The notes under the pieces are model-generated. The model did no database searches and had not been told where the DNA came from. It saw only the letters and a list, made by a program, of their open reading frames with translations. Shown here piece after piece: positions 23,804 to 23,932 of a stretch of 40,154 nucleotides of DNA. This DNA comes from a candidate division WWE3 bacterium (GTDB lineage Bacteria > Patescibacteriota > WWE3 > UBA101185 > UBA10185), in the NCBI GenBank assembly GCA_012798115.1, contig JAAZNV010000007.1:89586-129739 (forward strand), given 5' to 3'. A program made the position numbers and the translations under genes. The number at the start of each line of letters is the position of its first letter. Positions within the stretch are counted from its first letter, which is position 1.

Positions 23804-23881
23804 ATGAACAAATTAACATATACATATTATTGGCATTTTTGGAGACCTAGTTTTCGGCGGGATGTATCCTTTGTGATTTAG
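23804..23881 (+). CDS. Leader peptide MNKLTYTYYWHFWRPSFRRDVSFVI of a ribosome-mediated attenuator
   Basis: 25-codon ORF starting 2 nt after the M20 stop; aromatic cluster YTYYWHFW; region 2 of the attenuator lies inside its 3' codons. Confidence 0.6.
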   Translation: MNKLTYTYYWHFWRPSFRRDVSFVI

Positions 23882-23932
23882 TTTTATATTAATAATTAAG
23901 AAGGATATAACCCGCTAAGAGCGGGATTTTTT
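23857..23932 (+). promoter_or_regulatory. Transcription attenuator upstream of 81-aa ORF / tRNA-Trp / trpS
   Basis: GCGGGATGTATCCTT (23857-23871) pairs with AAGGATATAACCCGC (23901-23915), excluding terminator CCCGCTaagAGCGGG (23911-23925) + ATTTTTT. Confidence 0.75.

Follow-up and report, generated by a model that had tools for sequence, protein, structure and literature searches.

The window analysed here is a 40,154-nucleotide (nt) stretch of DNA from a candidate division WWE3 bacterium (Patescibacteria; GenBank assembly GCA_012798115.1, contig JAAZNV010000007.1), and lies on contig 14 of the 0.76 Mb host genome (G000). It carries an operon in the order attenuator 1, M20 family peptidase gene, attenuator 2, a small open reading frame (ORF81), tRNA-Trp and trpS, in which both attenuators are predicted to be of the leader-peptide type. 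An earlier note, made from the sequence alone, had described the second of them. All results are computational; genomes were searched by patterns and covariance models, together with the stretches around the matches. The features of the attenuators and of the M20 gene are as follows (leader peptides are written without their stop codon).

22305 to 22333, + strand: putative sigma70-type promoter of attenuator 1 (TTTTCT-N17-TAAAAT), assigned by consensus and position only
22343 to 22393, + strand: leader peptide 1, MINKLSFRYHNWHTSA, probably leaderless (sequence; counterparts before M20 genes in G003 and G004)
22394 to 22401, + strand: attenuator 1 region 2 (GCGGGTTT), directly abutting the leader 1 stop codon (folding, pairing test)
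22435 to 22442, + strand: attenuator 1 region 3 (AAACCCGC) (folding, pairing test)
22448 to 22460, + strand: attenuator 1 region 4 (GCGGGTT) and T tract (terminator search, folding)
22464 to 23801, + strand: M20 family dipeptidase-like gene, target of attenuator 1 (Pfam PF01546 and PF07687; best NCBIfam match NF006053 dipeptidase, under its cut-off)
23804 to 23881, + strand: leader peptide 2, MNKLTYTYYWHFWRPSFRRDVSFVI (sequence; syntenic counterpart in G004)
23857 to 23871, + strand: attenuator 2 region 2, overlapping the leader 2 ORF (folding, pairing test)
23901 to 23915, + strand: attenuator 2 region 3 (folding, pairing test)
23920 to 23932, + strand: attenuator 2 region 4 (AGCGGG) and T tract (terminator search, folding); a premature 3' end is expected near 23927-23932

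Leader 2 begins 2 nt behind the M20 stop codon (23799-23801). It has 25 codons, from ATG at 23804-23806 to TAG at 23879-23881, and codons 10 and 13 are Trp codons (TGG 23831-23833 and 23840-23842). The terminator consists of CCCGCT-AAG-AGCGGG (23911-23925) followed by ATTTTTT, and the whole leader 2 region folds with a z-score of -4.0 against shuffles. When the RNA was folded as if a ribosome were stalled at Trp13, the pairing of regions 2 and 3 (2:3) formed at -25.5 kcal/mol. With the ribosome at the stop codon, the pairing of regions 3 and 4 (3:4) alone formed in the free RNA, at -10.0 kcal/mol. Thus, the leader ORF, Trp codons, regions 2 to 4 and T tract had been read exactly, base for base, in the earlier note, and the folding check that it proposed gave the structures it expected.

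A second complete attenuator unit (22343-22460), which the earlier note had overlooked, was found upstream of M20. The putative -10 box ends 9 nt ahead of the leader 1 ATG, and the Trp codon lies 18 nt ahead of region 2. With a stalled ribosome placed on the last Trp codon, the 2:3 antiterminator formed in the free RNA at -21.1 kcal/mol; with the ribosome at the stop codon, the terminator formed at -16.3 kcal/mol.

The spacing pattern GCGGG..CYCGC..GCGGG matched twice in the window and not at all in 100 dinucleotide shuffles. With the T tract included, the pattern gave 9 sites in 30 family genomes, as against 0 for the reversed pattern. All nine sites proved to be leaders of the same design, each with a short ORF whose ATG lies 51-58 nt ahead of region 2. 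The covariance model R1 added three leaders, two of which have an altered core that keeps both pairings: GCGGGG / CTCCGC / GCGGAG at the M20 gene of G004, and GGCGG / CCGCC / GGCGG in G006. In G004, which belongs to another genus, both attenuators occur in the same order and the peptides differ (MGIQEFKHYRYWKAA ahead of M20 and MDIKPLAMHFRWYWNLLLAGGNSYGKT behind it). In G003, of the same genus as the window, a single leader (MDRRLVIKIYRGWHNA) precedes M20-tRNA-Trp-trpS. The bare GCGGG pattern was also tried in distant GC-rich genomes; most matches there lay inside genes or at repeats (G036, G037 and G052), and these were dropped.

Once the ribosome-covered part was removed, the alternative structures folded as the attenuation model requires (z about -3 to -5). 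In each of 13 leaders compared as a seed set, the antiterminator (-17 to -27 kcal/mol) exceeded the terminator (-10 to -15 kcal/mol) in stability; read-through should therefore be favoured when a ribosome stalls. In all five Trp-operon leaders, region 2 follows the control Trp codon at a distance of 15-21 nt. This spacing agrees with the usual ribosome footprint. Thus, the leaders have the parts of a classical attenuator: a short ORF, predicted to be translated, that contains codons for the sensed amino acid; 2:3 and 3:4 pairings that exclude each other, with a T tract; and a geometry in which a stall at the control codon frees region 2 and a ribosome that has reached the stop codon blocks this region.

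The 2:3 pairing also covaries. In the test, region 2 without its conserved core was matched to the cognate region 3 or to swapped partners. The mean distal pairing energy was -7.2 kcal/mol with the own region 3 and -4.4 kcal/mol with permuted partners, and the own-partner value was equalled in 0 of 20,000 permutations. Compensatory cores were present as well (GCGGG/CCCGC, GGCGG/CCGCC and GCGGAG/CTCCGC). This test replaced an RNAalifold structure of the combined alignment, in which few pairs survived owing to the competition of 2:3 with 3:4.

Promoters were scored ahead of the leaders. A TTGACA/TATAAT-like promoter, ending 6-10 nt ahead of the ATG, was seen for 11 of the 13 seed leaders; the mean score was 10.4, and no mean among 500 shuffled sets was above 7.95. 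The two leaders lacking it are the second attenuators behind M20. In the wider search described below, 24 of 31 leaders scored at least 9.5, with the -10 box ending 5-11 nt ahead of the start codon; the -35 box lies outside the covariance model and hence was not selected for. Because the -10 box is so near the ATG, transcripts should begin at or beside it, and most leaders look leaderless.

To what the leaders respond was judged from the genes behind them. A second model, R2, was run on 389 Patescibacteria genomes and then on 298 of another class. Model matches lacking an ORF at the ATG of the model were left out, as were terminator-only ones (model positions about 75-146). A match with a synthetase gene downstream was taken as a leader-synthetase pair. 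In G013 and G006, two relatives from the same family, His leaders (MHHKFHK and NHHRW) precede operons with hisS (NCBIfam TIGR00442); R2 gave further His leaders ahead of hisS (NHYHY and NVSHH), and the genomes with a His-hisS pair are G013, G006, G310 and G245. R2 also gave a Thr leader (MLKIILTTSTTTSP) ahead of thrS, an Asn leader (MKIQKLNNNNNNSNAF) ahead of asnS, an Ile leader (MNMRRIEIIDIIIAPRKGGFFA) ahead of ileS and a Lys leader (MNSSYFIVVSKKEKKATHLRRGSF) ahead of lysS, the genes being named by NCBIfam. Trp leaders (MKNNTNVQLTLNNWWNPQTWRE, MKTNTQITNSWWNSLK and MTNTYQQIKFSWWRHSK) precede trpS, MKTNTQITNSWWNSLK also trpB, and a leader with FFYFWF precedes prephenate dehydratase and trpS.

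The cognate residue was enriched in 17 leader-synthetase pairs outside the seed set, with 0 of 200,000 permutations as good. These pairs include misfits (two aspS, recognised by eye, and one pheS), the background frequencies are rough, with a raw-fraction test in agreement, and the R2 matches, taken up to E = 0.01, include chance ones; several of the trpS cases are related.

No T-box was found in the window by a covariance search with RF00230, and T-boxes were found elsewhere in the same genome. Matches occurred in 23 of 46 genomes of the class and exceeded the Rfam cut-off in 4, including G000; some scores given here are under the cut-off, and specifiers were read by eye. A T-box with a UGG specifier stands directly ahead of trpS in G035, and another stands ahead of tRNA-Trp-ORF-trpS in G041, an arrangement close to that of the window. 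In G000, a T-box (GAA-CAC) stands ahead of tRNA-His, with hisS 1.3 kb on, past two opposite genes; at the hisS operon of G013 and G006, the element is a His leader. In G000 and G001, AstE/AspA-like and GCS2-like genes stand behind UAC T-boxes; in G030 and G031, Tyr-containing leaders precede operons with AstE/AspA-like genes. Leader-peptide and T-box sensors thus seem to replace each other. The view that a leader peptide instead of a T-box is unusual in this type of genome has to be qualified, as leader-peptide control of synthetases recurs across Patescibacteria beside T-boxes.

T-boxes stand directly ahead of tRNA-Trp (L135:880-1213, G041) and tRNA-His (L131:1057-1428, G000:C5), and a G001 operon with a UAC T-box ends in tRNA-Tyr (L138:140-2761), so that tRNA genes themselves may be under charging-controlled transcription. 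In three relatives, T-box-like elements (L132:1902-3516, L133:1764-3378 and L136:4484-6108) precede the same kind of gene near trpS and DUF554-type genes; the gene at L132 showed a Glycos_transf_3 domain.

Taken together, the region is very probably a tryptophan operon in which two transcription attenuators of the leader-peptide type, one after the other, sense charged tRNA-Trp. Transcription would start at or beside the leader 1 ATG and run through M20 into leader 2. When charged tRNA-Trp is scarce, a ribosome would stall at a Trp codon 15-21 nt ahead of region 2; region 2 would be left free to pair with region 3, and RNA polymerase would read on. When Trp is plentiful, the ribosome would pass region 2 to the stop codon, 3:4 would pair, and transcription would terminate at the T tract. 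The trpB gene was not found in G000 and 28 relatives (29 genomes searched) and was present in 14 of 14 control genomes. Since no trpB was detected, the host cell seems to be a Trp auxotroph, which would have to import Trp or obtain it from peptides. Such a need for peptide-derived Trp would fit a Trp-gated dipeptidase: attenuator 1 would gate a peptidase that possibly releases Trp from peptides.

Several observations weigh against this interpretation. There is no conserved region 1:2 hairpin in the 13 leaders; most, including leader 2, are no better than shuffles, and the hairpin is strong only at M20 of G003 and at trpS of G004. This hairpin is a feature of the trp prototype, and we did not take it as defining for all attenuators. 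As it is not conserved, an untranslated leader should read through by default. The M20 leaders have a single Trp codon apiece, and His, Tyr, Phe and Arg are present in the leaders too. In G001 and G002, which share the genus of the window, tRNA-Trp-trpS is not preceded by a leader of this kind. Furthermore, ORF81 is nearly an orphan, and the tRNA-Trp/trpS pair carries its own putative promoter. The features behind attenuator 2 are as follows.

23961 to 24206, + strand: ORF81 (81 aa), first gene behind attenuator 2, no Pfam match
24210 to 24248, + strand: strong hairpin without T tract in the gap between ORF81 and tRNA-Trp, -21.5 kcal/mol (folding)
24233 to 24262, + strand: putative internal promoter TTGCCT-N18-TATACT, -10 box ending 20 nt ahead of tRNA-Trp
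24283 to 24357, + strand: tRNA-Trp (CCA) (tRNA searches of the window)
24397 to 25425, + strand: trpS (NCBIfam TIGR00233, above cut-off)

Among 5.8 billion proteins, only near-identical copies of ORF81 were found; a 75-aa ORF at the equivalent place in G004 is weakly similar to it. TATACT/TATAAT-like boxes end 10-20 nt ahead of tRNA-Trp in five genomes (the window and four relatives), two of them without leaders. Because the box is kept in relatives and the hairpin separates ORF81 from the tRNA, transcription of tRNA-Trp and trpS probably also starts at a promoter of their own. The same boxes and hairpin would suit an arrangement in which attenuator 2 serves ORF81 alone and tRNA-Trp/trpS are independent of leader control in this species. 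We regard this as a serious possibility, somewhat short of probable. The hairpin, however, lacks a T tract, and the terminator search called nothing there; in other Patescibacteria a leader lies upstream of trpS, at 56 nt in G093 and elsewhere one to a few genes away; and trpS itself has a Trp T-box in relatives. Under the reading of two attenuators in series, the sure targets here are M20 for attenuator 1 and ORF81 for attenuator 2, and read-through of attenuator 2 would add to the tRNA-Trp/trpS output beside that of their own promoter.

The interpretation in the earlier note therefore needs correction in part. Its attenuation logic is backed by the covariation it had proposed to look for, the geometry and the presence in other genera, and its Trp signal by the Trp codons kept ahead of region 2 in all Trp-operon leaders and by cognate leaders elsewhere, such as His-hisS and Thr-thrS. 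Attenuation of the tRNA and synthetase block stands for read-through but not otherwise, given the conserved promoter and the hairpin between; the target, the unmentioned M20 attenuator and the claim of rarity have to be amended.

The trpS of the window has 65-80% identity to trpS of Patescibacteria, one of them labelled candidate division WWE3, and no trpS relative encoded on viral contigs was found by the search used. Just downstream of trpS in G003 (L067:3666-3743), ARAGORN detected a tRNA-like gene with the anticodon UUA, which reads the stop codon UAA (65.5 bits with the Rfam tRNA model). This gene may be a suppressor tRNA or a decayed gene.

The leaders might instead sense several scarce amino acids (Trp, His, Tyr and Phe), any hungry codon of the cluster stalling the ribosome and freeing region 2. 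Trp-locus leaders do also carry His, Tyr and Phe (FRYHNWH, YYWHFWR and FRWYW), and those of the PIG-L/glycosyltransferase operons mix W, H, Y, F and C. However, the enrichment of the cognate residue at synthetases goes well past permutation, and clean runs occur (NNNNNN, TTSTTT, IIDIII and SWW). We consider multi-residue sensing unlikely.

Much less probable is a plain M20 terminator with an accidental short ORF and upstream complementarity. The hairpin is directly behind M20 and intrinsic terminators are common, but the small ORF, its spacing and the Trp codons are kept in another genus, the distal 2:3 helix covaries, and a like unit is also found ahead of M20 and at many operon heads. Slighter still is the chance of a metabolite- or protein-binding RNA (riboswitch- or TRAP-like) in which translation of the ORF is irrelevant: alternative hairpins are typical of these too, but tRNA was the only Rfam family in the window, no credible match (trp and his leaders included) was found in ten leader loci, and what is conserved is an ORF with synthetase-matching codons and a bare 2:3:4 core, not an aptamer.

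Leaders rich in W, H, Y and F (L061, L064, L065, L120, L166 and L176) precede operons of an uncharacterised protein of 436-600 aa. These operons also hold a PIG-L deacetylase or an AstE/AspA-like enzyme, and several a GT4 glycosyltransferase. Control of the PIG-L/glycosyltransferase operons by cysteine was considered and dropped, as several leaders have no Cys; it was further weakened by T-boxes at related AstE-GCS2 genes, which read Tyr (UAC), and by the tRNA-Tyr in the G001 operon. In G313:C2 (L167:290-6400), three consecutive genes of about 600 aa, similar to one another and with no assigned function, stand behind a Leu-rich leader (MNKKLMQQNLLNLLLVLTGFSG), and in G313:C17 (L199) a leader with a Phe run (NKFFFFFE) precedes another uncharacterised gene.

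The attenuation logic itself is known. As in the enterobacterial trp, his and pheST attenuators, the leaders have a short ORF with control codons, 2:3 competes with 3:4, and a stall leads to read-through; pheST is a synthetase operon under leader-peptide attenuation, as cited in PMC1262725. In contrast to the enterobacterial leaders, those of Patescibacteria have no conserved 1:2 hairpin, are apparently leaderless, can stand two in series, and differ in sequence and phylum. Attenuators have been predicted for trpS2 of S. avermitilis and leuS of Streptomyces spp. (PMC1262725). They share the control-codon leader before a synthetase and the antiterminator and terminator hairpins, but are actinobacterial, and no link is made there to other synthetases, tRNA genes or T-box replacement. 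The trpL RNA of Sinorhizobium meliloti (rnTrpL/peTrpL) encodes a Trp leader peptide and is leaderless, beginning at the ATG (PMC7298713); it controls trpE(G) biosynthesis in an alphaproteobacterium, whereas the window has a peptidase, ORF81 and tRNA-Trp/trpS in an apparent auxotroph. The T-box (RF00230) likewise responds to the charging of tRNA and regulates synthetase operons through read-through, but binds tRNA directly, without translation. His attenuators predicted in Firmicutes (PMC9413887) have His leaders and terminator/antiterminator pairs, in lineages without a T-box on the same genes; they control his biosynthesis operons, and hisS is unmentioned in that report. What sets the present case apart is the phylum, the mostly leaderless form, the lack of a conserved 1:2 hairpin, the arrangement in series and the apparent interchange with T-boxes. 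A literature search, with subscription journals and preprints mostly outside its coverage, found no paper on leader-peptide attenuation or T-box exchange in Patescibacteria.

How Patescibacteria control their genes has hardly been explored; a perspective of 2024 describes their key molecular mechanisms as virtually unknown and does not mention attenuation (PMC11665869). Our results suggest that Patescibacteria probably have a recurrent, mostly leaderless system of leader-peptide attenuation, in which tRNA charging controls genes for synthetases, tRNAs and peptidases as well as the remaining amino-acid genes, and which has repeatedly been swapped with T-boxes at equivalent operons. The apparent exchange of T-box and leader within one class is a natural case of two unlike RNA mechanisms for one job, and leader residues predict what operons of uncharacterised function respond to. 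In these largely auxotrophic epibionts, a sensor of tRNA charging placed ahead of synthetase, tRNA and peptidase genes would reveal how the cells react to amino acids from the host.
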